This document shows positions 1-21,057 of a DNA stretch of 64,000 bases, in pieces (within the stretch, counting starts at the first letter, position 1; each line of letters opens with the position of its first letter). The notes beneath the pieces are model-generated. The model saw only the letters and a program-made list of their open reading frames with translations, was not told the DNA's origin and did no database searches. The position numbers and the translations under genes were made by a program. The stretch covers positions 124,001 through 188,000 of the forward strand of contig NZ_JAFBID010000002.1 in NCBI RefSeq assembly GCF_016811235.1, read 5' to 3'. The DNA is from Microvirga arabica. GTDB lineage: Bacteria; Pseudomonadota; Alphaproteobacteria; Rhizobiales; Beijerinckiaceae.

Positions 1-131
1 ACGTAGCCAGAGAGGTTCTTCACCTCACGGGCAGTGCCTGAGAACGTGCCGTTCCGGTCGGTCGGAAGAGTGATCTTCCAATGCTTCAAACTGAAGGTGA
101 GGCTTGGCGCGTGCGACGAATAGGAAGTCAA
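1..131 (-). CDS. PL7-like alginate lyase, N-terminal fragment running off the left edge
   Basis: Reading the minus strand from about 143 gives an open frame that leaves the window at base 1. It contains SLKHWKITLPTDRNGTFSGT followed by AREVKNLSGY. This matches the N-terminal strand of polysaccharide lyase family 7 (pattern 'LSxWKLxLP...AxEIxxL'). The frame is closed by TGA at 144-146 and holds no ATG, so the best start is TTG at 129-131 with GAGG (142-145) ten bases upstream. No signal peptide is encoded, which is unusual for PL7 enzymes, so the gene may be cytoplasmic, use a different start, or be 5'-damaged. The catalytic motifs lie outside the window. It is transcribed away from the alginate operon. 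Family call is from about 43 residues only. Confidence 0.55.
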   Translation of the reverse strand, partial: MTSYSSHAPSLTFSLKHWKITLPTDRNGTFSGTAREVKNLSGY

Positions 132-946: not shown

Positions 947-2257
947 ATGCAAATTAGTGTCTTTGGGATTGGCTATGTCGGAGCGGTCTCATCGGCGTGC
1001 TTGGCCAATGATGGTCATCACGTCATCGCAGTCGATCCGAACCCCCAGAAAGTTGGCCCGCTCAATGAGGGCATCAGCCCAATCGTCGAGCCGGGATTGG
1101 GAGACCTGATACAAAGTGGGATCCGCAGCCGGCGCCTTATGGCAACCAGCGATGTGCGCGAGGCTGTCAATGGCACGGACCTATCCTTCGTTTGCGTCGG
1201 AACGCCTTCCCGTCCGAACGGCTCTCTCGATACCGCCTATGTCAGCGCCGCCGCCGAGCAGATCGGCGCAGCAATCCGAGAGAAGAACTCCTTTCATTCC
1301 GTCGTCATGCGCTCCACGATCCTGCCGGGCACGATGGAAAGCATCGTTCTGCCTGCTCTTGAGCGCGCTTCCGGCCGTCAGGCCGGCGTGGGCTTCGGCG
1401 TTGCATATTACCCGGAATTCCTGCGGGAAAGCACTGCCATCAGCGACTACTACGATCCAGGCGCGATCATCTTCGGGCGCCATGATCAGGCGACCGTTGA
1501 TCGTCTGCTTGAGATCCACAAGATCTTCAAGGTCGAGCCGAGGGTCGTTTCCATCCGGACCGCTGAGGCGGTGAAATACACCAACAACGCTTGGCATGCT
1601 CTCAAGATCAGCTTTGCCAATGAAATCGGCAATATCTGCAAAGAGGCCGGAATTGATGGTCATGCCGTGATGGACGTGCTCTGCGCGGACAATCGACTCA
1701 ACATTTCCAAGGCTTATCTCAAGCCCGGCTTCGCGTTCGGTGGGTCTTGCCTGCCAAAGGACCTTCGGGCGCTGCGCTCCGCTGCCCGAAAGCTGGACGT
1801 TCCAACGCCTATCCTCGACGCAACGATGGACGCCAACGAGGAGCAGTTGCGGCGCGCGTACTCGATGGTTGCTGCAACAGGCAAGCGCCGGATCGGCATC
1901 ATCGGATTGAGCTTCAAGCCGGAAACCGACGACCTGCGCGAAAGCCCGTTGGTGGAGCTTGCGGAGCGCCTTTATGGTCGTGGATACGACATCCGCATCT
2001 ATGATCCGAACATTCAGGTCTCCAAGCTGACCGGCGCGAACCTCCAGTTCGTAAAAGCCCACCTTCCTCATCTGACGTCACTCCTGACGGCCGATATCAA
2101 TGAGGTCGTGGATCACGCCGAAGCCTTCGTCCTCGGGAACCGTGACGAAGCCAAGCGTCTCCTGGATGTCGTGCAGGATGACCGGCCTCTCATCGATCTC
2201 GTTCGTATCGACCAAGCAAGGTGCTCAGGTGACTTCTATCAGGGAATCTGCTGGTAA
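947..2257 (+). CDS. algD: GDP-mannose 6-dehydrogenase AlgD
   Basis: Oxidises GDP-mannose to GDP-mannuronate, the committed step of alginate precursor synthesis in the cytoplasm. The ATG at 947 gives 436 residues, which I recall as the length of the Pseudomonas enzyme; upstream TTG starts would add a tail unlike the family. An N-terminal Rossmann motif FGIGYVGAV (6-14) binds NAD. The catalytic cysteine is C268 in GGSCLPKD, the same number as in Pseudomonas AlgD. LSFKPETDDLRESP and the C-terminal ending GICW are also AlgD hallmarks and separate it from UDP-glucose dehydrogenases. AGGAAC lies just upstream as ribosome binding site. It is the first gene of the operon and overlaps alg8 by 29 bases. 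Confidence 0.95.
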   Translation: MQISVFGIGYVGAVSSACLANDGHHVIAVDPNPQKVGPLNEGISPIVEPGLGDLIQSGIRSRRLMATSDVREAVNGTDLSFVCVGTPSRPNGSLDTAYVSAAAEQIGAAIREKNSFHSVVMRSTILPGTMESIVLPALERASGRQAGVGFGVAYYPEFLRESTAISDYYDPGAIIFGRHDQATVDRLLEIHKIFKVEPRVVSIRTAEAVKYTNNAWHALKISFANEIGNICKEAGIDGHAVMDVLCADNRLNISKAYLKPGFAFGGSCLPKDLRALRSAARKLDVPTPILDATMDANEEQLRRAYSMVAATGKRRIGIIGLSFKPETDDLRESPLVELAERLYGRGYDIRIYDPNIQVSKLTGANLQFVKAHLPHLTSLLTADINEVVDHAEAFVLGNRDEAKRLLDVVQDDRPLIDLVRIDQARCSGDFYQGICW

Positions 2258-3770
2258 CGGCAGTATCCGTCTCTCGGAGTCGATTGGGGCGCACATCCTC
2301 TACGTGGTTGCCGTGGCGGCTTTCGCCGCCGCGCTTCCACCGGGAGCATATGTCTCTGTCGGGGCCGGCGTGATCGGAGCCATCGGAATACTGGCCATGT
2401 GGCGCTACGGATGGGGCCTGCTGCACTTCATCCGTGCGCTCATCTTCCGGAAGCTGGTCTTTCCGCGCCAGCGGAAGGCTTCCGACGAGGCGGTCAGGCT
2501 CGATCCTCCCAATGCCTTTCTCCTCGTGACGACGTTCCGAATCGACAGTGCAGTCACTACCCGTGTTTATAAAGCCGCTTTTGAAGCAGCATTGGCCGCG
2601 CCCGGAAAAGCCACCGTGATTGCATCGATCGTCGAGGCTGGTGATCAGCGGCTCATCAAGAGCCTGTTTCAGGCGATATGCGGCCACCAGGATAAGGTAG
2701 ACCTGGTCATCGTCAGGATTGCCGGAACCGGCAAGCGGGATGCTCTCGCTTACGGATTCAGAGCTGTCGCCAGGCGTGCTCCGGCGCCTGACGACGTCGT
2801 TGCCGTCATCGACGGTGACAGCATCGTTCCGCAGGATCTCGTGGGGAAATGCGTCGGCTTCTTCCAGCTCGACCCGCAGGTGGGCGCACTGACGACTGAC
2901 GAGATGAGTGAAGTCAGGGGACGCCGTATCTTTCAGGAATGGTATGCTCTGCGCTTTGCACAGCGGCATACACTCATGTCCTCGTTAGGATTGTCCGAGC
3001 GTGTTCTGACACTGACGGGACGCATGTCGATGTTCCGCGCGAGCATCGTCTGCAACCCGGAATTCATCCGTCAAGTGGAGCTGGACTATGTCGATCATTG
3101 GCGTCTCGGCCGCTTCAAGTTCCTTACCGGCGACGACAAATCGAGCTGGTTCTGGCTTCTGCGGAATCGCTACAAGATGCTCTATGTTCCGGACGTCGTC
3201 GTTCTGACGGTGGAAGATCCGCCATCGGAGAACTTCGTCTCGGCTGCGGCCATGCTGATGGTACGGTGGTTCGGCAACATGCTGCGCACGAATTCAAGAG
3301 CTCTTGCTCTTGGACCTCGGAAAATCGGCCTGTTCACGTGGTGGTCGATCCTCGATCAGCGCTTGTCGATGTGGACCTCACTCGTCGGCTTCTTCGTTGC
3401 GCTCCTCGCCGGAATATTCATCAGCGGATACGCACTCCTTCTCTATGCGCTCTGGATCCTGACGACCCGCTATATCCTGACACTCTCTCTCCTGGCTTCT
3501 CGCCAGAGAGTGTCCGTTTTCTATCCATTCCTTCTCTACTTCAACCAGATCTTCGGATCGTTGATCAAGGTTCACGTGACGTTCCGTCTCGACCGTCAGA
3601 AGTGGACGCGACAGAAGACGACATCTGCGAACGTGGCAAAGCGCCCTCTGATCGCAAGCAACTTCATGTCAGCCTACATGCACAGTGTTGCGCTTATCGC
3701 ATTCATATCGGTGTTGGCATGGGGCATGAACGTCCTTCCGACACCAAGTCCCATGTTCTTCCTTCCTTGA
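2229..3770 (+). CDS. alg8: Alginate (polymannuronate) polymerase subunit Alg8
   Basis: Family 2 inner-membrane glycosyltransferase that polymerises mannuronate from GDP-mannuronate. GTG at 2229, inside the end of algD, gives 513 residues and begins just before the first hydrophobic segment; upstream ATGs lie deep inside algD and are less likely. Visible signature parts: VDLVIVRIAGTGKRDALAYG, the nucleotide-binding VIDGDS (D195, D197), RFAQRH, TLTGRMSMFRAS, and FLTGDDKSSWFW (about 298-309). Membrane segments lie near the N-terminus and in the C-terminal third after DQRLSMWTSL. The alignment with Pseudomonas Alg8 is continuous by eye, so this is Alg8 and not a cellulose or hyaluronan synthase. 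It works with the Alg44 product encoded next. Confidence 0.95.
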   Translation: MTSIRESAGNGSIRLSESIGAHILYVVAVAAFAAALPPGAYVSVGAGVIGAIGILAMWRYGWGLLHFIRALIFRKLVFPRQRKASDEAVRLDPPNAFLLVTTFRIDSAVTTRVYKAAFEAALAAPGKATVIASIVEAGDQRLIKSLFQAICGHQDKVDLVIVRIAGTGKRDALAYGFRAVARRAPAPDDVVAVIDGDSIVPQDLVGKCVGFFQLDPQVGALTTDEMSEVRGRRIFQEWYALRFAQRHTLMSSLGLSERVLTLTGRMSMFRASIVCNPEFIRQVELDYVDHWRLGRFKFLTGDDKSSWFWLLRNRYKMLYVPDVVVLTVEDPPSENFVSAAAMLMVRWFGNMLRTNSRALALGPRKIGLFTWWSILDQRLSMWTSLVGFFVALLAGIFISGYALLLYALWILTTRYILTLSLLASRQRVSVFYPFLLYFNQIFGSLIKVHVTFRLDRQKWTRQKTTSANVAKRPLIASNFMSAYMHSVALIAFISVLAWGMNVLPTPSPMFFLP

Positions 3771-3800
3771 TGACAGCGTTGCCGCTTGGAGACCGTATCA

Positions 3801-5006
3801 ATGACGAAAATCACGCATGAGGCCGAGGTTCAAAGGCAGCATCCTCGATACCGCTTGCCCGTGAAATGCATTCACAATGGAGCCCAGCTCGCTGTTGTTG
3901 ATATTTCGGTTGGCGGCCTGGGGCTTCGGACCGGATCGCTGGATGCGAAACCGGGCCAGGTGCTCGATCTCACGCTCGCCTTCCCATTCAGCGGTTATGA
4001 GCTGACCCTGCCCATCAATGCGGAGGTTCGCTACGTCGCCAACGAGCATAGCAGAATTGGCCTTCGCTTTGTCGATGTCTCGCCACGTCAGCATAGCCTC
4101 CTGCGGTTCATCCTCGATGCATACCTTGCCGGTGAGGTGGTGGAGGCAGGTGACGTGCTGGATGTCGTTGCCCGGCGCAACGAGGGGAAGACCCGGGAGG
4201 TTCCTCCGCGGCCCCAACCTCAAGGTATTCTGCCCAACCTCGCCCGCCGTGGCCAGGCCGCCGCCGGCTACATCGGCATCGGCGCGGCGACATTGCTCCT
4301 GCTGGGCTTCATCGGGACGAGCCTGTTCGACCGCTTCTACCTGATCCCGGCTCAATCGGCCCAGATCACAGCCGATCTGGTCACTGTGCCTGCTCCATCG
4401 AACGGCCAGATCACCTTTGTGGCTGCGGGGAACGAGGTCAAGGCGGGCGAGCCGCTCCTCACGATCCAAGGAACCCAAGGCAACAGCATCGTTCTCGACA
4501 GTCCTTGCAACTGCGTGGTTCAGGCCCGGTATAGCCGAACCGCCAACTTTGTTCGCGAGGGCGCACCGATCATCACCTTGCGGGAGAAAACCAGCAATCC
4601 TTACGTTACTGCCAGCATTCCGCAGGATCAGGCATTGCGGTTCTACAAAGGGGCAAGTGCGGTCATCGAATATGCCGATGGAACTCGCGTAAGGGAAGCT
4701 AATATTGAGCGCCTGCCATCCTTCGAAGACCCTTCGCTGGCGGGAAGGATGATCGTCAAACTGGCACCCGGTCGCGAACTCGGGGCATCGACGATCGGTC
4801 AGCCTGTATCCGTGGTATTCAATACATTTTCCGGTTCCTCTATCGGATCTGCCGTTAGCAAGCTCCAAACGGCTGTGAGCTGGGCAGGCAACAAGATTGC
4901 AGCTATCCTGTCCAAGGACAGCGCGACGGCCAATGCATCAAAGAAGGCCAAAGAGCCTCAAAGTGAGAATGGAAGGCGGCTAGCCGGACTCAGTTCTGGG
5001 GAATGA
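3801..5006 (+). CDS. alg44: Alg44: PilZ c-di-GMP receptor and periplasmic subunit of alginate polymerase
   Basis: Inner-membrane co-polymerase that binds cyclic di-GMP and activates Alg8. ATG 3801 is preceded by GGAG at 3788-3791, giving 401 residues. The PilZ domain is at about 10-110, with the c-di-GMP motifs intact: R12xxxR16 in RQHPR and D34xSxxG in DISVGG. A single membrane segment (about 155-175, IGIGAATLLLLGFIGTSLF) leads to a periplasmic HlyD-like domain (about 185-350: VTVPAPSNGQITFVAAGNEV ... GEPLLTIQG). The intact binding residues imply that polymer synthesis is c-di-GMP dependent (inference). A gap of 30 bases separates it from alg8. Confidence 0.93.
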   Translation: MTKITHEAEVQRQHPRYRLPVKCIHNGAQLAVVDISVGGLGLRTGSLDAKPGQVLDLTLAFPFSGYELTLPINAEVRYVANEHSRIGLRFVDVSPRQHSLLRFILDAYLAGEVVEAGDVLDVVARRNEGKTREVPPRPQPQGILPNLARRGQAAAGYIGIGAATLLLLGFIGTSLFDRFYLIPAQSAQITADLVTVPAPSNGQITFVAAGNEVKAGEPLLTIQGTQGNSIVLDSPCNCVVQARYSRTANFVREGAPIITLREKTSNPYVTASIPQDQALRFYKGASAVIEYADGTRVREANIERLPSFEDPSLAGRMIVKLAPGRELGASTIGQPVSVVFNTFSGSSIGSAVSKLQTAVSWAGNKIAAILSKDSATANASKKAKEPQSENGRRLAGLSSGE

Positions 5007-5060
5007 ATGGGTCCGGACCATCGACCGGAGGACATCACTTGAATTTTTTGGAGATCAGCA

Positions 5061-6479
5061 ATGGACAATATTATTCCGGTTCTCATGTGCGGTGGCTCGG
5101 GCACACGCCTATGGCCGGTGTCGCGTTCAAGTGAGCCGAAGCAGTTTCATGCTCTTTCCGGCAGCGAAAGCCTGTTCCAGCAGACGGTCCAGCGCTTCCG
5201 CACGGATCAGTACGCCGAGCCCCTTATCGTCGTGAACACCAACCACCGCGACCTCGCACTGCGGGAGATCGGGCAATTGAGCGCAGGATCGGCCCGGCTT
5301 CTCGTCGAGCCGTGCGTGCGAAGCACGGGTCCTGCCATCGCGGCGGCCGCGGCTCTGATTGCCGAAGAGGATCCGGAACGGTTGATGCTCGTTGCGCCAA
5401 GCGATCATGTTATTGAGGAAACTGAAGTATTCACGCAGGCTGTGTCGCAAGCCGCGGTGGCGGCACGTCAGGGGCAGATCGTCCTCTTCGGCATCCGTCC
5501 GACCCATCCTGAGACTGGCTTCGGCTATATCGAGGTTGGCGAGGCCTTCAATGACGCCAGCTTCAAAGTCGCAGGCTTCGTCGAGAAGCCGAAGCAGGCC
5601 GCGGCGGAGACATTGGTGGCGGGCGGCCGCCACCTCTGGAACAGCGGTATCTTCATGTTTACCGCTCGAACCATTCTGGAAGAGCTTGAAAAGTATGCAC
5701 CGGACGTGCTGGCCTGCGCCCGTCGTGCGCTTTCCACGGCCCAGAGGGGCAACGATACGATCCGTCTGGCGGCCGATTTCGATACGGCCCCGGTCATCTC
5801 GATCGACTATGCCGTGATGGAGCGGAGCGAACGGCTGGTCTGTATTCCTGTGGCGCCGGAATGGCGGGACCTTGGTTCCTGGTCGGCTCTGTGGGATGTG
5901 GGCAGTAAGGATGGTGACGGGAATGTCTCCCGCGGAGACACGCTCCTGCAAGATGTGCGTAACAGCTATGTTCTTGGCAACTCCAGGCTTGTTGCCGTTA
6001 TGGGTGTCGAAAAGGTTGTCGTGATCGACACGGCTGACGCCGTGCTCGTGAGTTCGCTTGACCAAGCCCAAAATGTCGGTCGTCTTGCGGCCGAACTCGC
6101 CGCGGCAAAGCGTCCGGAAGCCAACCTGCACAAGAGGGTGCGGCGTCCGTGGGGCTCCTATGAATCCCTGCGGTCAGGCGAGACTTTCCAGGTGAAGCAC
6201 ATCATCGTCGATGTGGCAGGACAGCTGTCGCTTCAGTACCATCATCATCGCTCCGAGCACTGGACTGTTGTTTCCGGGACCGCCCGTGTCACTGTCGGCG
6301 AGCGGGTGTTCGTCATGAAGGCCAACGAGTCGGTCTACATTCCAAAGGGCGATGTCCACAGGCTGGAAAACATCGGCGATGACGAACTTCACCTGATCGA
6401 GGTTCAGTGCGGCACGTATCTCGGCGAAGACGACATCGTGCGTCTGGAGGATCAGTATGACCGCATCGTCACGATCTGA
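5061..6479 (+). CDS. algA: Bifunctional mannose-6-phosphate isomerase / mannose-1-phosphate guanylyltransferase
   Basis: Type II PMI-GMP of 472 residues that makes mannose-6-P from fructose-6-P and GDP-mannose from mannose-1-P, feeding AlgD. The N-terminal guanylyltransferase domain has the signature GGSGTRLWP (11-19) and FVEKPK. The C-terminal cupin isomerase domain has the metal-site motif QYHHHRSEHW (392-401). ATG 5061 has GGAG close upstream. In Pseudomonas algA is the last alginate gene, while here it sits fourth. No phosphomannomutase (algC) is in the window; as in other bacteria it may be supplied from elsewhere. Confidence 0.95.
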   Translation: MDNIIPVLMCGGSGTRLWPVSRSSEPKQFHALSGSESLFQQTVQRFRTDQYAEPLIVVNTNHRDLALREIGQLSAGSARLLVEPCVRSTGPAIAAAAALIAEEDPERLMLVAPSDHVIEETEVFTQAVSQAAVAARQGQIVLFGIRPTHPETGFGYIEVGEAFNDASFKVAGFVEKPKQAAAETLVAGGRHLWNSGIFMFTARTILEELEKYAPDVLACARRALSTAQRGNDTIRLAADFDTAPVISIDYAVMERSERLVCIPVAPEWRDLGSWSALWDVGSKDGDGNVSRGDTLLQDVRNSYVLGNSRLVAVMGVEKVVVIDTADAVLVSSLDQAQNVGRLAAELAAAKRPEANLHKRVRRPWGSYESLRSGETFQVKHIIVDVAGQLSLQYHHHRSEHWTVVSGTARVTVGERVFVMKANESVYIPKGDVHRLENIGDDELHLIEVQCGTYLGEDDIVRLEDQYDRIVTI

Positions 6480-9400
6480 AGGTCGACGCCGATTGCGTGT
6501 CGCTGTCCTGTTCATGTCCATGGCGCTGACTTCCAGCGCCATGGCGCAGGGTGGCAACGAGGTGTCCCGCCTCGCGGATGAGGCCCGCCAAACGTTTCTT
6601 TCCGCCGAGCAGAATGGCGTCAACCTGAAGCAGAAGGCCGGGTTTTATCAGGTTGCACGGGCTAGGTTGAGGCTGCTTGAGAAATTCGCCGGCCAGGAAA
6701 ATGCAGGCTCGGCGGAGCTGCGCGACGGAGCCCGGGCCGAATTGATGCGGCTTGCGGATGATGGTTTGAGCCATGACATTCTCGGCTCCTTCCTTCTGCA
6801 GTCTTCGCTTGGCGATATCACGGGCGCGGCATCCGTTGCGGATCGTGTGGAGGTGGGCGTATCGCTGCATCAGATTGCCGCCGAGCAGAGATCGCCCGCC
6901 TACCGGTCTGCCGCTTTCGTGGATCTTGCTCATGCCTATGCCAAGGCCGGCGCTCAGGACCGCGCACTAAGGTATGCTTCTCTCGCCATCGAGGCGGCAG
7001 ATCAGGTGCCTGAGATAGGCACGCGAGGGGGAGCCTACAAAGCAGCAGCCCGCGTTGCAGCAGGTCTGGGTCCATCGGGCATGGAACTGGCTGATCGTGC
7101 CGTCGCACGGATTCCGCAACCCCGTGACCGCGCCCATGCGCGCCATGAGCTGGCGCGCATCCAGCTCAAGGGGAGTGCCTGGGAGAAGGCTACGGACACC
7201 AAGCTTATTGAAGAGGCGAAGCGGCGGCTCGAATCTGGGGATCTTCCCGGAAGCGCCTTGCTGGCCCTTTCACTAATGGACAGCAAAGCACGAGATGGCC
7301 TGCTCTCCAATCTCATTGACGCTGGGATTTCCAGGCGGGAGGACAGGGTCGCCCTTCTCGCGGCACAAGGGCTCGCAGGCGCGAGCAACCAGGATAAAGC
7401 CATCGCTGCGCTTGTCGAACATTATGTTGATCAAGGTGCTGCCTTCCGAGCGGCCGAAATGCTCAACGCCATGCAGGACAGCCCCGGCAAGGCTTTGATT
7501 CAGCTGAAGCTTGCCTCTCATCTGAAGCAGTCTGGTTATGACACCATGGCCGCTCAGCTCCTATCCGCAGGCACCCGACACATTGATATGTATGGCGAAG
7601 CCATGCAACGCGCGGTTCTTCCTGGCGTCGTCCGGGCGCTCACAGGTTCCGAGCGCCTGGATGAAGCGTTGCGCTATGCTGAGCGGATCGGGCCTGATGC
7701 TGAGGGATCGTCTGTCCTTGGCGAGTTGGCGAAGAAACTAGCGGATCACGGTCGGGTGCCCGACGCCGAGGCTCTGCTGTCTCGGCTTGTGGACAAAGAT
7801 CACCGTTCTCATGCGCTGAGCGGCATTGCACGGGCAAAGGCTAGGGCCGGAGATGTCGCCGGCGCCATGCAGCTCGTCCCCGAACTTGTCGGAGCGAAGG
7901 ATGTGGGACGAGTTCTCGCGGCTGTCGTCAACGTTCACTCCCGCTCTGGCGATTTCGATCAGGCGATCTCGGCGGCTGAGCAAATAGAAGATACAGACTC
8001 TCGCCTTGCGGCTCTCTTCGACGTTGCACGTCAGGCTAGGCAGAAAGACAAAGGACAGATCAGCGAACGCGCGTTGAACGGCGCTGTCCGGACTGCCGAG
8101 GGGGTCGAAGCCGGCGCACGAGACAAGGTGCTCCTGGAGATCATCAGACATTTTGCTTTCGCGACAAACAAGGCGGAGGCAAGAGATCTCGTCGGGCGCA
8201 TCGCCGACCCTGCCATTCGTACACGTGCCGAACAGCTGATCGTTGCAGCTGATGTAAGGGACCTCGCCGGGAAGAGGGGGCGTGGCGAGATTCCTGATGT
8301 GTTGCTGGCGCGCGGCATCGAAAGAATCGAAGCCGATGAGGATAAGGCCGAGCTTGCGCTCCAACTCGCCGCTCTTCCGGAAAGCGGCACCCATGCTGTC
8401 GATTTGATCCGCACGATTCAGGATCAGAGGTTCCGTGGAGCGACCTTCCGGCGCTTTGCCGAGAGGCGGGCTGACCTTCTCAGGAAGCCTTCGGCAGAAG
8501 AGCCCAGCACGGGCGTGCCACAGGATGTGCAGACAGTCGCATCTGTTTCCGAAGAACCTGAGGAAACGGCACAGGAAATCCAGACGAGAAGGGGCCTCGC
8601 GCTGATCCTGGGGGATGCTGGAAAGGCCACGGGTGCGATGGAGCAACTCCCCCGGAGTTTCGTGACAGCGGCAGATGTCAGGGCAGGCACGCCATGGCCA
8701 CACGATGCAACGGTCGGAGCCACCTTTGCAAACCACAACCCATATATCGCAAAATTCTTCGAGGATGATGAGCAAGGAAGCACCCGCCTGGAGCAGGCGG
8801 TCCGACATCAGGGTCTGTCCTCGCCCCGAGTTATCGTGGTTCAAGGTGGTGTTGCGACACTTGGAATGGTTGCTCGCCAGCTGCAGGGCACCGACGCGCG
8901 GGAACTCATTGAACATAGTGCTGGCGCTGTGACGGTGCGCGCCCCTATTTTCGTCGCGCCTGGAGCCACACTCATTCTATCCCGCCTTGACAGCCCGACC
9001 TATCGGCTCAGTGCAAGTGCCGGCGCCTTTATCGTCAATGCAGGCAATGTGCACATCGTCGACGCCGAAGTTGTCGGATACGACGAGACATCCGGACGCC
9101 CCCTTTGGGCTGACCCTGATAAGATCACTAAATTCCGGCCCTTCCTCCTCACCTGGGGAGACGGGCGCATGAACGTGGCTTCGTCCACTCTCGTGGCTCT
9201 CGGCTATGGTAACGCCAAGTCTTTCGGGTTGAGCTACTCTTCAGGACCGGAGCGAGTGGCGGAACTGCGGGATCAGTCGCGCCCCACGGGCATTGTTGTC
9301 GACAGCGTATTCCATAACCTCCACTTCGGCTTCCACTCCTACGAGGCAGAGCGCATTCAGGTTGTCGGCAACGAGTTCCGGGACAGCGTCGTCTATGCTC

Positions 9401-10197
9401 TGGACGTCCATGACCGCACGAAAGAGACCGTCGTTGCCCTGAATACGGCTTATGGCACGAAGGAACGGCACGGGATCACCATCTCGCGCGAGTCCAATGA
9501 TGGCTTGGTTGTCGGCAATGTCACGTTCGACAATGCAGGCTCGGGTATCGTTATCGATCGTAACAGCACGAACAATGTCATTCATGCCAACAGTTCGTTC
9601 AGAAACGAGCAAGACGGCGTAACGATATTTGAGAGCTCCTGCAATGTTCTGGCCAACAACTACCTTGCGAGCAACAGGAGAGACGGGTTGAAGGTGCGTA
9701 ACAGCATCGACGTTGGGGCATATTCAAACCGTATCGAGGCTAATGCCAATTCCGGCGTCAGCGCATACATCGCCAACATCATAGCGCAGAAGAGTGGGGG
9801 GCGTCCAAATCCTGACCTCGCCAGCTATCTTCCAATGACCAGCCTTTCTCTCAGGCACAATCGCTTCTCTGCAAATGGAGTCGGCATCAACGCGCAAGGG
9901 GTATCGAGCCTCGCGATGTCGTCCAACAGTTTCGTGAAGCAGTCCCGGCGTCTCCTCGGTGGTGATATTCGCGGGCTGGAAGGTCAGATCCTGCGCCTTA
10001 CGTCCCGATCGGATGTTCTCGTTGCGAGCACCTGCCGACCGGCGAAGCCGGTATCAGCGTGCCGCTTGCGGGATCAGGGCTTCTTCCAGGGGGAGAGCGA
10101 GCTGCAGGTCTTCAGGTCCCAAGGAGGATCCGATTGCACCGATGTGGATGGAAGCGTGCAGCATCGTGCCTTCTTCAGCGCACCTCAAGGCACATAG
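6457..10197 (+). CDS. algG: Fusion protein: exported TPR-like domain plus AlgG-type mannuronan C5-epimerase
   Basis: 1246 residues. ATG 6457 lies 23 bases inside algA and is preceded by GGAGG. Residues 1-30 form a signal peptide (VAVLFMSMALTSSAMA). About 35-680 is an alanine-rich helical repeat region of TPR type (for example AFVDLAHAYAKAGAQDRALR). An acidic linker (about 690-720) precedes the C-terminal domain (about 760-1200), which aligns with AlgG: a right-handed beta-helix with YGTKERHGITISRE, IVIDRNSTNN and NRRDGLKVRNS. AlgG converts mannuronate to guluronate in the polymer. The active-site motif DPHDR of Pseudomonas reads DVHDR here (983-987). Pseudomonas AlgG lacks the large repeat domain; the fusion may take over the scaffold role of AlgK (inference). 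Confidence 0.88.
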   Translation: MTASSRSEGRRRLRVAVLFMSMALTSSAMAQGGNEVSRLADEARQTFLSAEQNGVNLKQKAGFYQVARARLRLLEKFAGQENAGSAELRDGARAELMRLADDGLSHDILGSFLLQSSLGDITGAASVADRVEVGVSLHQIAAEQRSPAYRSAAFVDLAHAYAKAGAQDRALRYASLAIEAADQVPEIGTRGGAYKAAARVAAGLGPSGMELADRAVARIPQPRDRAHARHELARIQLKGSAWEKATDTKLIEEAKRRLESGDLPGSALLALSLMDSKARDGLLSNLIDAGISRREDRVALLAAQGLAGASNQDKAIAALVEHYVDQGAAFRAAEMLNAMQDSPGKALIQLKLASHLKQSGYDTMAAQLLSAGTRHIDMYGEAMQRAVLPGVVRALTGSERLDEALRYAERIGPDAEGSSVLGELAKKLADHGRVPDAEALLSRLVDKDHRSHALSGIARAKARAGDVAGAMQLVPELVGAKDVGRVLAAVVNVHSRSGDFDQAISAAEQIEDTDSRLAALFDVARQARQKDKGQISERALNGAVRTAEGVEAGARDKVLLEIIRHFAFATNKAEARDLVGRIADPAIRTRAEQLIVAADVRDLAGKRGRGEIPDVLLARGIERIEADEDKAELALQLAALPESGTHAVDLIRTIQDQRFRGATFRRFAERRADLLRKPSAEEPSTGVPQDVQTVASVSEEPEETAQEIQTRRGLALILGDAGKATGAMEQLPRSFVTAADVRAGTPWPHDATVGATFANHNPYIAKFFEDDEQGSTRLEQAVRHQGLSSPRVIVVQGGVATLGMVARQLQGTDARELIEHSAGAVTVRAPIFVAPGATLILSRLDSPTYRLSASAGAFIVNAGNVHIVDAEVVGYDETSGRPLWADPDKITKFRPFLLTWGDGRMNVASSTLVALGYGNAKSFGLSYSSGPERVAELRDQSRPTGIVVDSVFHNLHFGFHSYEAERIQVVGNEFRDSVVYALDVHDRTKETVVALNTAYGTKERHGITISRESNDGLVVGNVTFDNAGSGIVIDRNSTNNVIHANSSFRNEQDGVTIFESSCNVLANNYLASNRRDGLKVRNSIDVGAYSNRIEANANSGVSAYIANIIAQKSGGRPNPDLASYLPMTSLSLRHNRFSANGVGINAQGVSSLAMSSNSFVKQSRRLLGGDIRGLEGQILRLTSRSDVLVASTCRPAKPVSACRLRDQGFFQGESELQVFRSQGGSDCTDVDGSVQHRAFFSAPQGT

Positions 10198-10204
10198 AGG
10201 CAGC

Positions 10205-11302
10205 ATGAAACAGGTTCTCATCGTTCTCCTGCTGAATCTTCTGACGATCGGTTCGTCTTTCGCACAGAGCAAAGGGCACGGACTTTTTGATGTGGATCTC
10301 CGTAGGACCGCACTGGGGCAGCCAACTTTCACGAGTGCGCGCGCGGCTTGCCTTGCTATTCCGCGCGATCCGGCGTGGAGCAGCCTCAAACCGGTCGACC
10401 GCTTGAAGAGCACTGAGGGATACGGGACGGACGGGGCTGCCAATGATTATGCCTGGGCCGTCATGGTGCTCACCGGACGTGCGCTTGCAGGTGACACTGC
10501 ATCGGAAACATCTTTGCGTGATCTTCTGCTCGCCTGGGCCAAAGCCAAGGCTTTCGCCGATACGGAGGTTGAGCACGACGCTTATTATGCCTTGAAGCGC
10601 GTCCTTCTGCCCACCGTCGTGGCGTTCTCGGTCCTGCAGCGTGGGCTGGATGAGGGGCAGAGCCGGATGTTGTCCGAGTGGATCGATCCCCTGGTCCGCA
10701 AGATTGATCGAACATTCGACGGCGTCGTTGACCGCAACAACCACCGCTATCTCGCAGACAGCGTGCTGATGACGTGGGGAGCTGTCGTGAGAGACGAGGC
10801 TCTCTACGCAAAAGGGGACGAGCGCTATCGCGCAATCCTGGCAGAGGCGCGTCCTGATGGGAGCCTCGCTCTGGAGACCAGGCGAGGGGCCAGGGCTCTC
10901 TGGTACATGCGCCAGTCTCTGGCGAGCCTCACTGTGATGGCGGAGGTGGCTGCCACACGCGGCACTAACTTCTACGATCTCCGGGTTGGAGAGGTGAACT
11001 TTGACCGGGTCTTGTCCTATCTTCTGAATGGCATAGCGGAGCCCAACGTCGCGATGGCCTACGCGTCCGAGAACTACATTCCGGGCGGTGAGACGGATGC
11101 CCGCCGCCAGGATCTCGGTTTCTTGACGAAGCGCAGCCATGGGCGTCACTACATGGCCTGGACCGAGCCTCTGGTCGCAAGGGATCGGGCAGGCCTCGCC
11201 ACAAAAAGGTTGAAAGCATTGTTCGTGCGCAACATCCGCTCGGATCGGCCACTCATCGATGAATTTGTTGGTGGCAATGCCACATGCTTCTGGGGACGCT
11301 GA
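10205..11302 (+). CDS. algL: Periplasmic alginate lyase AlgL (PL5)
   Basis: 365 residues, starting with a signal peptide (MKQVLIVLLLNLLTIGSSFA|Q). ATG 10205 lies seven bases after algG with GAGG in front; longer frames upstream are inside algG. PL5 lyases cleave polymannuronate by beta-elimination and clear polymer that strays in the periplasm. The catalytic set known from Sphingomonas A1-III (Asn, His, Arg, Tyr) is all present: N179-H180 in RNNHRY and R227...Y234 in RGARALWY, spaced seven residues apart as in the known enzyme. The stop overlaps the next start by one base (TGATG). Confidence 0.87.
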   Translation: MKQVLIVLLLNLLTIGSSFAQSKGHGLFDVDLRRTALGQPTFTSARAACLAIPRDPAWSSLKPVDRLKSTEGYGTDGAANDYAWAVMVLTGRALAGDTASETSLRDLLLAWAKAKAFADTEVEHDAYYALKRVLLPTVVAFSVLQRGLDEGQSRMLSEWIDPLVRKIDRTFDGVVDRNNHRYLADSVLMTWGAVVRDEALYAKGDERYRAILAEARPDGSLALETRRGARALWYMRQSLASLTVMAEVAATRGTNFYDLRVGEVNFDRVLSYLLNGIAEPNVAMAYASENYIPGGETDARRQDLGFLTKRSHGRHYMAWTEPLVARDRAGLATKRLKALFVRNIRSDRPLIDEFVGGNATCFWGR

Positions 11303-14232: not shown

Positions 14233-14304
14233 GAGGCTGACCACGTGGCAACAAGTGTGAGGCAGCGAGCCTCGGAACAGGTTGAGGCAGAACGGAGTGT
14301 GACA

Positions 14305-17157
14305 ATGACGATCCTCACCCGCTCGGCCGGCATGAAAGTAGGAAGCGTCATGGCGCAATCGTTAGCGACTCTCGCCGGCACGGCATTAACCGCGTTGATC
14401 GTCCTCGCCGGCTCTGCCGGGGCTCAAGTTCCGTCGGCGCAGTCGCTGGCACCCACGTCGGATTTCAGCACGATCTGCACACCGGCACCGAAGCCTTTTC
14501 TGACGCGCGATTGGAGCAAGTGGGACAAATCTCAGCCGGTCGTCGACCCTGAAGAAATGTATGATGCGGCGATTGCGTACGCCGAGGGAAGTGCCACTCT
14601 CAAGCGTGATCCCGTCGCGGCGAAGCGCCTCCTCGAAGACCTGTCGGATCGGGCATGGCCAGGGCGGGGCCGAGCCCACTACAGGCTCGGCAAGCTGCTC
14701 CTCGATCCGATTGCAGGACCTGTCGACCCTGAGCGAGCCGCGATGCACCTTGCGACAGCTTCATCCATGCTGAACCTGGACGCATCGGTTCTGCTGGCGG
14801 AGCTTCATGAGCAAGGCCGGATCAGCAGTGCCAGCTTGGCGGAGGCGGAGCGCCTCCTTCGTGCCGCGTCTGCCGCAGGTCATGTTGACGGTTTGATCGC
14901 CTTCGCCCGGCTTCAGCGCAGCGGCCGTCTTGGCGCGGTGCCTCAGGCTGGATCCAGCGACCTGATCAATCTTGCCCTGCAGTCCCTCCACGGAGACCTG
15001 AGCAGAGGGCGATGCTCCGCGCTTTATCGCATCGGGCTTATCCTCAGCGACGAAAGCCTCGTTCCCGGCGGCGTACAGGAGGCCATCAAATGGTTTGAGG
15101 CTGGCGCCCGCCAGGGCGACGCAAACGCCGATCTGGCTCTTGCCGAAATTTATCTGCAGGAGCGTGTCAAAGCCACTCCGGACCGCTTCATTCATCATCT
15201 CGAACGAGCTGCGGAAGCCGGCAGGCCGCGCGCCATGACGTTGCTTGGCGAACGCCTCATGCTCGGAGATAAAGCGCCCAAGGATGTTCCGAAGGGCGTA
15301 GCATGGCTGGAGCGAGCCGGCCTCAATGCCGATCCTGAAGCATACAAGCTTCTTTCTCGCCACTACCGCGGGGATTTCGGGGCTGCTCCCGATTTACTGA
15401 GGGCCGCGGACGCCCTCCTCAAGGCGAGCCGGCTGCCAAGCCACAGCACGAGCATTCTTGTCGGTCTTGCACGGCTTTATGCCATCGGGCTGAATGGCCA
15501 GCCCGACGTCAAGGAGGCCCTGGCCTATTACCGTCAGGCCGCAGACAGGGGCGATGTGGGAGCCCTGACCGACATGGCGAAACTCCTGTTGAACCATCCG
15601 CAGGAAGGATCCCCGGAGACTCCCTTGCGACTGCTCAAGGAAGCCGCCGCCCGCAACCATCCTGAAGCCATGGGCGTTCTGGCGGACCTTTATGCCTGCA
15701 GTGCGATTGTTGCGCCCGATGCCTCCCAGGCAAGAGCCTGGCTGGACCGAGCAGCAGAGATGGGGCATGTCCGCAGCATTCTGGCGGTCGCATCGCGAAA
15801 TACATCCGATCAAGGATCCGCTCAGAAGAGTGCAGCGGCTCTCCTTCGTGCCGCAGAGCGAGACGACCGCGAAAGCATGGTTCTGCTCGCCCATGCGTTT
15901 CGGTCGGGTCTGGGTGTGAAGCAGGATGTTCAGGCCGCCGATCGGTGGCGGAGCGCCGCGCTCGCGCCGGGAGAGGGACGATCCCGTGCGCTACTCCTCA
16001 TGGCCCGCAGAATCCTGAGCGGTGAGGAAGGGAATCGGGATGATGCTGCAGCAAGAACCCTTCTCGAGCAGGCTGCCCGGGAAGGGGAGCCGGGCGCCCA
16101 ATTCGAGCTTGGACGCCTTCTGATCGGGCAACGGGGAGACAAGGCGTACGTTCTGCAGGGCCTGCAGCTTCTTCAGGCGGCCGCGGCCTCCGGAAATGCT
16201 GCAGCCATGCTGGCGCTGTCCGAGGCTCCGAGCGATCTGCTGTCTTCGACTGGGAAGACTGCACAGGAATGGAAGAAAGCGGCAGCAGAGGCCGGTCATG
16301 TTCGGGCTGCCATTGCGCTTGCATCAGGTGCGAAGGAGCCGGGGGATGCAGCAGGCTGGCTTACGCGCGCTGAGACGCTCCCCGTGTGCGTAACAAGGGA
16401 TATGGTCGAACTTGCACAGGCCTATCATAAATTGCCCGGCTCTCAGCATGTCGAGCGTGCACGGTACTGGATGGAAAAAGCTCTCGGCAATCTTCAGGCT
16501 GGAGCAAAGGATCCTGCCGCTTTGTTTTTGGCGGGGCGAGCCATGATCGACGGCGTTGGCGGAATGGCCGATAAAGAGGCGGCCATCACCCAGATAACGC
16601 TTGCTGCCGATGCGGGTCGGACCGATGCAATGCGGTATCTGGGACGTGGTTATCTATCCGGTCAGTTTGGTGAGCAGAACATGCAGACAGCTGTTGAATG
16701 GCTGTCGAAGGCTCTGCGCAACGGCGACGGCAGCGTGGCGGCCGATCTGTCCCGTCTTGCCGCTGTCCCTGGCAGCGAGGGATCTGCGGCGATTGCCGTC
16801 TTGAAGGAGAGCGCAGAGAGCGGCCTGGCGCCCGCCATGCGGGAATACGGCCGCAGCTTGCAACTTGGACTGGGGATGACCCCACAACCGGATATCGGCG
16901 CCTCCTGGTTGCGAAAAGCCGCAGAAGCTGGCGATACCGCTGCGATGAAGGAGCTTTCACGCGCCTATGCGTCTGGCTACGGCGTTGAACTTTCAGCCAG
17001 CGCCAGCACTGAATGGTTGCAACGTGCCGCAAAGGCCGGCGATGCAGAGGCCATGCAAGGCCTGAGCCTCGCCATGACCCTTGGCTTCGGAACGGATGTT
17101 GATCCTCTCGCAGCACAGGAGTGGCTGAAGACAGCCGAAGGGGCAACCCGGAAATGA
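14305..17157 (+). CDS. Exported Sel1-repeat protein B of the alginate operon
   Basis: About 950 residues from ATG 14305, which has GGAG at 14294-14297; a GTG at 14245 and ATGs at 14332 and 14350 are alternatives. A hydrophobic segment (TLAGTALTALIVLAGSAGAQ) acts as signal peptide. Sel1 repeats then run to the C-terminus (for example EAIKWFEAGARQGDANADLA and ASWLRKAAEAGDTAAMKELS). It resembles the preceding protein in size and design but not closely in sequence. The C-terminal repeats are the most regular. No catalytic domain is seen. It lies 72 bases after protein A, same operon. Confidence 0.78.
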   Translation: MTILTRSAGMKVGSVMAQSLATLAGTALTALIVLAGSAGAQVPSAQSLAPTSDFSTICTPAPKPFLTRDWSKWDKSQPVVDPEEMYDAAIAYAEGSATLKRDPVAAKRLLEDLSDRAWPGRGRAHYRLGKLLLDPIAGPVDPERAAMHLATASSMLNLDASVLLAELHEQGRISSASLAEAERLLRAASAAGHVDGLIAFARLQRSGRLGAVPQAGSSDLINLALQSLHGDLSRGRCSALYRIGLILSDESLVPGGVQEAIKWFEAGARQGDANADLALAEIYLQERVKATPDRFIHHLERAAEAGRPRAMTLLGERLMLGDKAPKDVPKGVAWLERAGLNADPEAYKLLSRHYRGDFGAAPDLLRAADALLKASRLPSHSTSILVGLARLYAIGLNGQPDVKEALAYYRQAADRGDVGALTDMAKLLLNHPQEGSPETPLRLLKEAAARNHPEAMGVLADLYACSAIVAPDASQARAWLDRAAEMGHVRSILAVASRNTSDQGSAQKSAAALLRAAERDDRESMVLLAHAFRSGLGVKQDVQAADRWRSAALAPGEGRSRALLLMARRILSGEEGNRDDAAARTLLEQAAREGEPGAQFELGRLLIGQRGDKAYVLQGLQLLQAAAASGNAAAMLALSEAPSDLLSSTGKTAQEWKKAAAEAGHVRAAIALASGAKEPGDAAGWLTRAETLPVCVTRDMVELAQAYHKLPGSQHVERARYWMEKALGNLQAGAKDPAALFLAGRAMIDGVGGMADKEAAITQITLAADAGRTDAMRYLGRGYLSGQFGEQNMQTAVEWLSKALRNGDGSVAADLSRLAAVPGSEGSAAIAVLKESAESGLAPAMREYGRSLQLGLGMTPQPDIGASWLRKAAEAGDTAAMKELSRAYASGYGVELSASASTEWLQRAAKAGDAEAMQGLSLAMTLGFGTDVDPLAAQEWLKTAEGATRK

Positions 17158-17213
17158 GCATTTGGAACGTAAAGCGCGTGCGGCCGTCTCTATTCGGCGG
17201 TTGGGAGAGACAA

Positions 17214-18551
17214 ATGAAGAGAACAACCCGAATTGTGCTCCTGAGCTCTCTTGTGGTGAGCATCGCACCGGCCGTAATGGCAGCCTCCCATCAGGGCACC
17301 AGAGCACAGCCGCGATCATCTCAGGCTGCTGTTCCAGCCCCGCCGCCGACTCAGGCGCAGCTCCGAGCGATGTCCACCATGCGTCTTCTGAAGCTCGGGC
17401 AAAAAGCGCTGACTGTCGATATGGATACGCAGGATTTCGTGACTGGGCTCGACGCCGTCAAGATTGCATCCGCACGTGGAGACCGGGAGGCGACCCGTCT
17501 CATGGCCAAGATCATGGCACGCCATCAGATCATCCTCGGTGCGGACGACCGCGCAAAGCTTGAACGGCGTTTCCGCTTCGAGGCTCTCCGTGGCGCATCG
17601 AGTTCCGTTCTCGCGATTGCCAATATGTACGATCGCGGCGACGGTGTCCCGGTCGATACAAAGAAGGCAGCCGAGTGGTACCTGTGGGCTGCACGTGTCG
17701 GGCATGAGCGTGCCATGGCTCATGCGGCTTATGCCTATGGGACCGGGCGCGGATTGGAGCGCAACGAGGCCACTGCGCTGAAATGGCTTGGAAGCGTGAA
17801 CGAGGGACGCCAGCGGAGCACTCTTCTCGACATCGGATGGGCTCTCGCGCTAGGAACGGAAGGGTCGAAGGACATGCCGACCGCTCTCCGGTTCTTTGAG
17901 CGCGCGGCACAGATCAAGCCCAGCACGGTCTATCAGGTCGCTCTCGATCTTGAGCGGGGAACACGCGGCATCCAGGATCGCGATGCGGCGGGCCATCTGA
18001 TCCGGGTTGCCGCCGAGCGGGGTGATAGTGGCGCGGCTACTCATCTGGCCAATGCGCTCTCAGGCAGCAGCAACGTCGAGGATCAGCGGCGGGCAGTGCA
18101 GTGGTATGGCCTTGCTGCGCAGGACAAGACCAATATCGCGGCTGGACAAAGTCTCGCACGCCTGCTTGCCCTACGGCCGTCAGGAGGGCTTGTCTCGGAC
18201 ATTGTCGCAGCTCTGGAAAAGGCAAAGGCGGCAGGCAATCCTGAAGCGATCATCGGTCTAGCCCATGCGTATTCGGAAGGCATCGGAGTTGATGTATCGC
18301 CAGAGAAGGCTGCCATTCTGTTGGAGGAGGCCTCAGGCGCAGGGCATCCAGAAGCAAAGTATAAACTAGGGCTCATGTATAAATCGGGCGTAGGCGTCAC
18401 GGCTGATCTCAACAAGGCGGTTGAACTCATGACGAGCGCTCGGGACAGCGGCTATCCGCTCGCTGCGGTCGCGTTGAGTTCGATGATGGAGCCAGTCACG
18501 ACAAATTCTGTCGGAGAGCCTGCTCAAGCAAGCGAAGCAGCGGTGCAGTGA
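17214..18551 (+). CDS. Exported Sel1-repeat protein C, last gene of the alginate operon
   Basis: 445 residues from ATG 17214, chosen because GGGAG (17203-17207) sits six bases upstream and the result is a clean signal peptide (KRTTRIVLLSSLVVSIAPAVMA|A). ATG 17154, overlapping the previous stop as ATGA, is a possible longer start. After a proline- and glutamine-rich stretch come Sel1 repeats, such as ANMYDRGDGVPVDTKKAAEW and YKLGLMYKSGVGVTADLNKA. In size it is the closest of the three to Pseudomonas AlgK, but the signal peptide carries no lipobox cysteine. Function inferred as scaffold of the export machinery. Confidence 0.78.
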   Translation: MKRTTRIVLLSSLVVSIAPAVMAASHQGTRAQPRSSQAAVPAPPPTQAQLRAMSTMRLLKLGQKALTVDMDTQDFVTGLDAVKIASARGDREATRLMAKIMARHQIILGADDRAKLERRFRFEALRGASSSVLAIANMYDRGDGVPVDTKKAAEWYLWAARVGHERAMAHAAYAYGTGRGLERNEATALKWLGSVNEGRQRSTLLDIGWALALGTEGSKDMPTALRFFERAAQIKPSTVYQVALDLERGTRGIQDRDAAGHLIRVAAERGDSGAATHLANALSGSSNVEDQRRAVQWYGLAAQDKTNIAAGQSLARLLALRPSGGLVSDIVAALEKAKAAGNPEAIIGLAHAYSEGIGVDVSPEKAAILLEEASGAGHPEAKYKLGLMYKSGVGVTADLNKAVELMTSARDSGYPLAAVALSSMMEPVTTNSVGEPAQASEAAVQ

Positions 18552-18937: not shown

Positions 18938-19705
18938 ATGTCGAACCTGTTGCCGGTCACTACCATCTTGAGCTGCAAGAATTCGATGCTCCGCGAAGGC
19001 TTGAAGCAAATTCTCTCAAGCACTCGCTTCAAGTTGCGGTCGGAGGGAATGACCCGCGACGAGATCATCCTGGATAAGGATGTGCCGGGCTCGTCCTTTC
19101 TCGTCATTCTTGATGCGAACCTTTTCCCCTCGAAGCTGTCTCATGGGATACGATCAATCAAGGACCAGTACTCACAGGCACGAGTGGTCATCCTCTCCGA
19201 CAATTTCAATCTCGATGACATGAAGTCAGCGTTCCAGTCAGGGGCGGATGGTTACTGTCTTGCGACGACAGGGTGTGAGGCTCTGATCAAGTACCTCGAT
19301 CTTGTCATGCTGGGTGAGGTGGTTTTTCCATCAGCTGCCTTCCTCAATGCGATCTCGGAAACACCGTGCGAGGCAGATACTCAGGAGCCATTGGCGATCA
19401 CGGTTCTTCCCACTCACGTACCTTTGAGCCTTGAGACCCATGACTCGCCCATACGGACGCTTTCAAGCAGAGAGTCCGAAATCCTTCAGTGCCTCATGCA
19501 GGGCGCGCCAAACAAGGTAATTGCGCGGAAGCTCGATGTTGCAGAGGCAACAGTCAAAGTTCACATCAAAGCTATTCTCCGCAAGATCCGTGTTGCCAAC
19601 CGAACCCAGGCTGCCATGTGGGCTGTCAATCACTTGGCTACCGGTCGAGACGAGGATGTGTCTCTCCTACCTGGTGAAAGGCTGGCCTTACAGAGTCTGC
19701 GCTGA
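18938..19705 (+). CDS. LuxR-family (NarL/FixJ-like) regulator with degenerate receiver
   Basis: 255 residues. The N-terminal half (about 8-125) has receiver shape, with a possible phospho-acceptor aspartate in FLVILDANLF, but the acidic pair usual at the end of strand 1 is replaced (TTILSCKNSMLREGL). The conserved lysine of strand 5 also appears lost (GYCLATTG). The C-terminal LuxR helix-turn-helix is complete: LSSRESEILQCLMQG, NKVIARKLDVAEATVKVHIK, AILRKI. It is probably phosphorylation-independent. Position right after the alginate operon suggests control of polysaccharide or related genes (inference). A paralogue is encoded at 20233-21057. Confidence 0.85.
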   Translation: MSNLLPVTTILSCKNSMLREGLKQILSSTRFKLRSEGMTRDEIILDKDVPGSSFLVILDANLFPSKLSHGIRSIKDQYSQARVVILSDNFNLDDMKSAFQSGADGYCLATTGCEALIKYLDLVMLGEVVFPSAAFLNAISETPCEADTQEPLAITVLPTHVPLSLETHDSPIRTLSSRESEILQCLMQGAPNKVIARKLDVAEATVKVHIKAILRKIRVANRTQAAMWAVNHLATGRDEDVSLLPGERLALQSLR

Positions 19706-20232: not shown

Positions 20233-21057
20233 ATGCGGAACACCTACGATCTTGATAGCCTTCCTCATCCAGGTGCCTCATCGGCCAAGGATGTCGCATA
20301 TTCCAGGTATATGGAATTGGCGCGCTCGGTTGAGCCTTCGTCGGCAGATCATGCGACGACCGTCAGACCCATCAGGACATTTCTCGTTGAGCCAAATGCG
20401 CTGTTGAGAGAAGGCTTGAGGCGAATTCTGTCGGAAACCGTCTATGCCCCTTCACTTGCGGCTGGAAGCCTCGATGAGGTCAGTTCCCAGTGTGGTCCCG
20501 ATGGCGGTACGGTTGTCCTGATCGCGGATGCAAGCCGCGAGCACGAGGAGTTCTGCCGTCAAACGAAGCTGCTGAAAGAGCAGAACCCAAACGCAAAAGT
20601 GGTCATGCTGGTCGAGCAATACGACCTGAACCACGTGCTCACCGCTTTCCGTTCAGGGGCGGATGCTTACCTCAAGAAATCGATTTCCTATGAGGTCCTC
20701 GTCAAATCGCTGGATCTGGTTCTCCTGGGAGAAGCCATCTTCCCCAGTGCGATTATCGATCTCCTGCGCGATCAAGAGGCCCGCGTCGAGCAGAGCAAGC
20801 AAACGTCGGCTTCAGAGGGACCTCAAGAAATGAGCCCTCCGACGAAAGGCTTATCCGTTCGTGAGACAGTTATCCTACGATGCCTCATGGATGGCGACTC
20901 GAATAAGCTCATTGCGCGCAAGTTCGACATTACGGAAGCGACCGTGAAGGTCCACGTCAAAGCCATCCTGCGTAAGATCCAGGCCAAGAACCGAACTCAG
21001 GCGGCGATCTGGGCTGCGAACCACTTGGCTGCGAGCCGGGGGGCGACCGTCAGCTAA
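20233..21057 (+). CDS. LuxR-family (NarL/FixJ-like) regulator, paralogue of the preceding one
   Basis: 274 residues, with about 45 extra N-terminal residues before the receiver-like domain. As in its paralogue the strand-1 acidic pair is altered (FLVEPNALLREGL). It keeps a candidate phospho-acceptor aspartate (VVLIADAS) and a lysine in AYLKKSISYE. The HTH is LSVRETVILRCLMDG...NKLIARKFDITEATVKVHVK. The linker and HTH halves are clearly similar to the first protein (LDLVMLGEVVFPSA versus LDLVLLGEAIFPSA), so the pair arose by duplication and then diverged. Target genes unknown; no partner kinase is adjacent. An intrinsic terminator follows. Confidence 0.85.
   Translation: MRNTYDLDSLPHPGASSAKDVAYSRYMELARSVEPSSADHATTVRPIRTFLVEPNALLREGLRRILSETVYAPSLAAGSLDEVSSQCGPDGGTVVLIADASREHEEFCRQTKLLKEQNPNAKVVMLVEQYDLNHVLTAFRSGADAYLKKSISYEVLVKSLDLVLLGEAIFPSAIIDLLRDQEARVEQSKQTSASEGPQEMSPPTKGLSVRETVILRCLMDGDSNKLIARKFDITEATVKVHVKAILRKIQAKNRTQAAIWAANHLAASRGATVS

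Follow-up and report, generated by a model that had tools for sequence, protein, structure and literature searches.

How does alginate leave a cell whose alginate genes include no outer-membrane porin? In Pseudomonas and Azotobacter, the alginate operon has the order algD-8-44-K-E-G-X-L-I-J-F-A. According to the sections of PMC9601211 on the well-studied Gram-negative synthase-dependent systems, each of these includes an outer-membrane barrel (AlgE, PgaA, BcsC). A 64,000-nucleotide stretch of the Microvirga arabica genome (the window) contains nine co-directional plus-strand open reading frames at 947-18551, all confirmed as present, which an earlier note had read as a rearranged alginate-type operon; the protein families and the closest solved relatives agree with that reading. 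We consider it very probable that the operon makes a non-acetylated, partly epimerised alginate by a variant synthase-dependent route, with a periplasmic solenoid scaffold and an exit other than AlgE. By its sequence features, it is a real, conserved and probably working variant of the alginate system.

Gene content of the operon

The gene order is algD-alg8-alg44-algA-(solenoid)algG-algL-selA-selB-selC (Table 1). Likely starts were set by comparison with relatives for AlgD (947, ATG), AlgL (10205), SelA (11302) and Alg44 (3801 or 3786); Alg8 likely starts at about 2229 (GTG), and a longer frame from an ATG at 2100 begins within algD. The genes tested, algD through selA (seven in all), contain no internal stops, and their dN/dS values were 0.016-0.170 against L070 and 0.024-0.133 against L076; in a third pair, which is more distant, saturation prevented the calculation for three of these genes. 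These genes are, as judged from the alignments, under purifying selection, and such constraint rules out a pseudogene or chance origin of the operon. Promoter and terminator scans at the locus gave nothing informative. The gene caller was crude, and antisense frames were mis-called opposite selB in L213 and several times in L147.

Table 1. Coordinates of the operon, its flanking genes and exported proteins of related loci (positions in the window unless a locus is named)
Feature	Position	Strand	Basis or remark
PL7 alginate lyase with RTX repeats, 5' end	1..131	-	divergent; remainder left of the window, L001:18917-20000
algD, GDP-mannose 6-dehydrogenase	947..2257	+	TIGR03026; closest solved relative 1mfz
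alg8-type GT2 mannuronan synthase	2229..3770	+	PF13641; DGD and TGDDK motifs; tree position
alg44, PilZ (c-di-GMP) and HlyD-like co-polymerase	3801..5006	+	PF07238, PF13437
algA, mannose-1-P guanylyltransferase / mannose-6-P isomerase	5061..6479	+	TIGR01479
algG behind an exported alpha-solenoid of ~640 residues (fusion)	6457..10197	+	NF038177; AlphaFold2 model
algL, PL5 alginate lyase	10205..11302	+	PF05426; catalytic-site alignment
selA, exported giant Sel1-repeat protein, about 976 aa	11302..14232	+	PF08238 5e-74
selB, exported giant Sel1-repeat protein, 970 aa frame	14245..17157	+	PF08238 1e-41
selC, exported Sel1-repeat protein, 476 aa frame	17121..18551	+	PF08238 1.5e-29
LuxR-type regulator 1	18938..19705	+	PF00196
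LuxR-type regulator 2, weak receiver domain	20233..21057	+	PF00196; PF00072 below its cut-off
Exported 347-373 aa protein	L217:7015-8091		
Exported 347-373 aa protein	L219:8174-9250		
Exported 347-373 aa protein	L221:8601-9722		
Exported 347-373 aa protein	L215:9464-10507		

An alginate synthase-dependent system was taken to comprise a GDP-mannuronate supply (AlgA and AlgD), an Alg8 synthase with a PilZ-bearing Alg44, a C5-epimerase AlgG with its catalytic His and Arg, a periplasmic lyase AlgL, the TPR lipoprotein AlgK, the porin AlgE and the O-acetylation proteins AlgI and AlgJ/AlgX; the first four were found in the window, AlgK is matched by the Sel1 proteins weakly and below the cut-off, and the last two were not found. 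AlgA scored 598 bits against TIGR01479 (cut-off 373). Among solved structures, AlgD matched the GDP-mannose 6-dehydrogenase 1mfz with 476 bits and next a UDP-glucose dehydrogenase with 260, which rules out the latter identity; it aligned with the former over its full length, with GGSCLPKD kept. The catalytic residues of the operon enzymes are kept in alignments with relatives. In Alg8, DGD and TGDDK are invariant across six aligned sequences. The sole solved relatives found for Alg44 are the Alg44 PilZ domains 4rt0/4xrn/4rt1, which presumably bind c-di-GMP, and its RxxxR and DxSxxG motifs are kept. AlgL matched PF05426 above the Pfam cut-off (4e-19) and, aligned with solved lyases, keeps NNH and R-x6-Y, positions that we take to be catalytic.

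The AlgG domain was recognised by NF038177 at residues 773-1108 (2.4e-78, below the curated cut-off). An AlphaFold2 model of fusion residues 31-1195, built with 37 sequences (pLDDT 86, pTM 0.83), is helical up to model residue 646 and continues as a beta-helix that superposes on AlgG 4nk6 with Z 41.8 and rmsd 1.8 over 420 of 424 residues; a structure search with the model returned a list filled by the beta-helix half. The xxHD histidine and SR arginine, presumably corresponding to H319 and R345, are kept in 52 of 71 aligned AlgG rows and are invariant in all 37 solenoid-fused rows (alignment A4). Epimerase activity of the window's AlgG is likely but not certain from its sequence because its DPHD motif reads DVHD. 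The solenoid is about 200 residues shorter in L077, L078 and L079. A second, diverged Alg44-like gene lies between algA and the solenoid-algG gene in L095, L099, L103, L108, L111 and L114.

The remaining 19 of the 71 rows, none of them solenoid-fused, lack both the catalytic DPHD and SR motifs. They belong to the short AlgG type with acetylation genes (17 named loci between L119 and L148, plus L044 and L048). Since the motifs are lost, these proteins may have a purely structural role, in which case the polymer would be polymannuronate.

The AlgK model NF038194 matched SelA (5e-19), SelB (1.4e-27) and SelC (4.7e-16) weakly and below its cut-off, and reading by eye found no clear lipobox in the three proteins. 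A place for the Sel1 proteins and the AlgG solenoid as substitutes for AlgK is plausible, but for these reasons the AlgK role is a guess. SelB was matched in all nine 40-kb relatives. The earlier note had also suggested that these repeat proteins supply part of the porin function; this finds no support, because Pfam recognises Sel1 repeats and the model consists of a helical solenoid and a beta-helix, with no barrel. Nor did its proposal that they replace AlgX hold as far as the enzyme is concerned: the acetylation branch was simply not found. Between selC and the first luxR gene, four of ten Microvirga have an exported protein of 347-373 aa (Table 1), in which a start/end motif resembles, by eye, that of a beta-helix protein encoded in Rhizobium (L035) and in L127/L128.

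The divergent PL7-RTX lyase is a protein of 404 aa (ORF 18917-20131 of the joined L001 and window), whose L001 part matched PF08787 (3e-44) and PF00353 in a family search. A small SLT lytic transglycosylase gene is located close to it (L001:18184-18684) and in seven named Microvirga loci as well; the enzyme could make room in the cell wall for an export complex.

Taken together, AlgA and AlgD would form GDP-mannuronate, which Alg8 would polymerise and move across the inner membrane once c-di-GMP is bound by the Alg44 PilZ domain, a mode of control that we infer from the kept motifs. In the periplasm, the AlgG beta-helix would convert part of the mannuronan to guluronate, and AlgL would remove stray polymer. 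The AlgG solenoid and SelA, SelB and SelC would serve as a periplasmic scaffold, as AlgK (with AlgX) does in Pseudomonas. The chain would then pass the outer membrane by some other or borrowed channel that is not AlgE and whose gene was not seen at the locus, and the PL7-RTX lyase, if secreted, would cut it outside the cell.

Conservation and phylogeny

Relatives were compared in 80 named loci (flank at most 10 kb) and 10 others (nine of 40 kb, one of 10 kb). Alg8 is 92-94% identical in Microvirga sp. BSC39 and BT688, M. soli, M. splendida and M. terrestris, which places the window in Microvirga, labelled Methylobacteriaceae in the tree. At E 1e-20 it was matched in 23 of 48 Microvirga genomes, 21 of them with a copy of at least 74% identity and the other two with weak or fragmentary matches. 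Across the order, 36 of 397 genomes match, and 12, including that of the window, do so at 49% or more; none of 19 listed genomes from other genera of the same family matched.

The order algD-alg8-alg44-algA-algG-algL-selA, with algA fourth as the earlier note described, is held in 13 of 14 Microvirga loci (two cut by contig or flank ends). Downstream, selB, selC and the two luxR genes follow in all ten additional Microvirga genomes for which this side of the operon was read. A PL7 copy of 59-84% identity lies left of algD in eight of the 14 loci, and in L082 the match is limited to the RTX part; in the other five loci, none was found within the flank or contig. The gene set is not strictly constant, since M. 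flocculans (L078:17149-20322, L213) has an algL frame reduced to an N-terminal stretch with the catalytic part lost, and a shortened selB.

Several layouts were recognised among the relatives: the Microvirga operon without acetylation genes, a run without algA in Rhizobium mesoamericanum, loci in which algI/J/X/F lie between the Sel1 genes or behind them, and loci with a short AlgG and algI/J/X/F. A quick Alg8 tree was built with 85 rows (28 of 82 inner branches drawn open), including the Alg8s of canonical operons, and its labels were assigned from the AlgE search and the gene content of the loci. In this tree, 57 rows including that of the window form one clade (support 100) in whose loci no AlgE was found; by their family names, its members belong to Rhizobiales and Rhodobacterales. 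Another clade of 14 rows (97) contains seven of the eight AlgE-bearing rows, and L104, L105, L106, L116 and L118 group together (99), joined by L107 (97). Clusters that pair an Alg44-like with an Alg8-like gene form a second family (L053-L068), with Alg8 identities of 35-41%; several of them contain AlgA, AlgD, a Sel1 gene or RTX proteins, and no AlgE match was obtained in the loci.

Search for the outer-membrane exit

The earlier note reported that algE, algX, algI and algJ are missing from the window, and searches for AlgE, ALGX/AlgJ and MBOAT extended this to the whole genome (G000). A second alg copy accompanied by algE, algX or algI, which would have spoken against its reading, was looked for in G000 and is absent. 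The Pfam model of AlgE (PF13372) gave no match in G000 at E 1. The built-in control of this genome search was positive only in Bacteroides (B. ihuae), and the model does reach alphaproteobacteria because it recognised the AlgEs of L112, L113, L115 and L117 (E 1e-31 to 1e-35). A profile of eight AlgEs found nothing convincing in all 41 genomes with alpha-type clusters, 14 Microvirga among them, with a single match at E 0.67 (G187); its five positive genomes are those that supplied its source sequences. Of 36 loci whose genomes entered the profile search, 29 belong to the 57-row clade and five carry AlgE, while L107 lies outside the clade and L101, too fragmented, did not enter the tree; ten further genomes with G numbers are not tree rows, the window's own excepted.

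ALGX/AlgJ (PF16822) was found neither in G000 nor in 12 of 13 other Microvirga, and MBOAT (PF03062) neither in G000 nor in 10 of the 13; G155 and G239, which have these genes in their clusters, gave matches to both. As G000 yielded neither family, the polymer of this strain should be unacetylated.

Might an AlgE be present after all, too diverged for the models or lost in an assembly gap? The absence rests on profiles and on mostly draft genomes, and seven AlgEs of the profile share only 20-39% identity with the first; still, the same negative result across several genera, together with the lack of a barrel-like gene next to the operon in those Microvirga neighbourhoods that were inspected (by eye and by family clustering), makes this quite improbable. 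It is even less credible that the product is another uronic-acid chain or is retained in the periplasm. The failure to find a pore would fit such a polymer, but the dehydrogenase is of the GDP-mannose rather than the UDP-glucose type, the active-site residues of AlgG and AlgL are kept, and an alginate lyase adjoins the operon.

Export through a general outer-membrane channel, whether an OPX protein, a TolC-type channel reached through the HlyD-like part of Alg44, or a general porin, we regard as rather unlikely. Alg44 does carry that part, and OPX occurs in 43 of 48 Microvirga including that of the window, but its presence does not follow that of the operon (19 of 21 genomes with alg8, 24 of 27 without, p 1), and none was found in G440, which has alg8 and is 99% complete. 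OprB was rejected as the exit: it occurs in four of 48 Microvirga, in just one of the 21 alg8 carriers, and does not track the operon.

Weak matches in a PgaA_barrel search led to P0010, a 1063-aa protein with TPRs and a C-terminal barrel-like stretch, encoded in a second synthase-type polysaccharide locus of G000 (C11, about 80-91 kb; L203) together with a GT2, a PIG-L deacetylase, SpoIIE and GH10. That alginate exits through this PgaA-like protein, shared in trans, seems unlikely. P0010 is present in 17 of 48 Microvirga, and its distribution follows the operon to a degree (14 of 21 alg8-bearing genomes against 3 of 27 others, Fisher p 0.00015, a value overstated because the species are related). 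However, its PgaA_barrel match in G000 is below the curated cut-off, it has GT2 and PIG-L neighbours of its own, and three species that have no close alg8 also carry it (split into two frames in one). Because seven of the 21 carriers, all 99-100% complete and six of them at most 7% contaminated, lack P0010, it was judged to belong to a separate system and was rejected as the operon's own exit.

A search of 19 genomes (14 Microvirga) for the BcsC barrel (PF05420) gave nothing above the cut-off, and this barrel fails as the Microvirga pore; sub-cut-off matches occurred in three of the 19, at least two of them in frames of P0010's length. When gene families around the clusters were grouped and those in at least four loci listed, the sole barrel family inside loci was BBP2_2 (PF10082), in L104, L105, L106 (cut at a contig end) and L118. 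In L104, L105 and L118 (E 1e-55 to 1e-64), and for the cut copy in L106, the gene adjoins a Sel1 gene and runs on the strand opposite to alg8. The L104 protein was modelled with 18 strands, at modest quality (pLDDT 68, three sequences); against known structures, AlgE heads the VIA list (Z 20.9) with other porins within about 1-2 Z, and the best AlgE entry ranks 50th by Foldseek. A BBP2_2 barrel in the alginate locus of four related uncultured loci suggests, short of proof, that another barrel can serve alginate genes and that AlgE is replaceable. In 20 of 23 other cluster genomes with neither AlgE nor an in-locus BBP2_2, such a gene lies elsewhere in the genome, and four of five AlgE-bearing genomes have one too. 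BBP2_2 is not the common exit of the clade, because it is absent from all 14 Microvirga genomes, where it fails as the pore, and from three other AlgE-less cluster genomes, and is present alongside AlgE. Of the exit candidates tested, none combines presence in every operon carrier with an association with the operon.

Comparison with known systems

The Microvirga system shares with that of Pseudomonas and Azotobacter the precursor enzymes, the Alg8/Alg44 synthase, the AlgG fold and active site, and AlgL. It differs in having no algE, algX, algI or algJ that we could find, three Sel1 proteins for algK, a 640-residue solenoid on algG, and algA in fourth place; the Pseudomonas/Azotobacter-type order was partly observed in L135, L129 and L147. 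The parts of PMC9734138 considered here describe the AlgK/AlgX/AlgE arrangement and a periplasm-clearing role of AlgL. In the sections considered, a survey of 1733 genomes reports rearranged alginate operons and losses of algKE and modification genes, and a figure legend names deep-sea bacteria for atypical operons (PMC7112194). Alginate operons without outer-membrane genes are thus already in the literature, which lowers the surprise, whereas the solenoid-AlgG fusion, the giant Sel1 proteins, the rhizobial clade and a genome-wide pore search are not described in those sections. What raises the surprise is how broad the AlgE-less clade is, the fusion together with the giant Sel1 proteins, and the fact that none of the known barrels tested fills the gap. 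Among titles and opening lines, with subscription journals outside the scope, no description of a Microvirga or Rhizobium alginate operon was found.

We advance tentatively, as a possibility, that in the AlgE-less clade (Microvirga, Rhizobium, Devosia, Rhodobacterales and others) alginate crosses the outer membrane by a route not yet described, which connects to a conduit in the periplasm formed by giant Sel1 solenoids, joined in many members by the AlgG solenoid, with secretion re-plumbed at least twice (BBP2_2 in one lineage, another exit in another). A broad alphaproteobacterial lineage has kept a constrained alginate synthase, epimerase and lyase without the known barrel, and finding the exit would tell whether an outer-membrane barrel is dispensable or replaceable. 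Microvirga and its soil- and plant-associated relatives may make non-acetylated, epimerised alginate. This is the form wanted for gels.

The 18-stranded model of the in-locus BBP2_2 protein of L104 recalls EpsX of the EpsX/EpsY export pair, which we take to be a BBP2_2 member. In the relevant sections of PMC9601211, EpsX/EpsY is a composite OPX/beta-barrel export system in which an 18-stranded AlgE-like barrel serves other polysaccharides, and differs in that its pathway is Wzx/Wzy. In Tolumonas (L137, L140), a gammaproteobacterial D-8-44-K-G-X-L-A order has neither AlgE nor algI/J/F within the locus. In uncultured alphaproteobacteria (L112:1385-3349, L113:1425-3734 and L115:860-3145), Sel1 repeats and an AlgE barrel are joined in one chain, an architecture like that of PgaA and BcsC.
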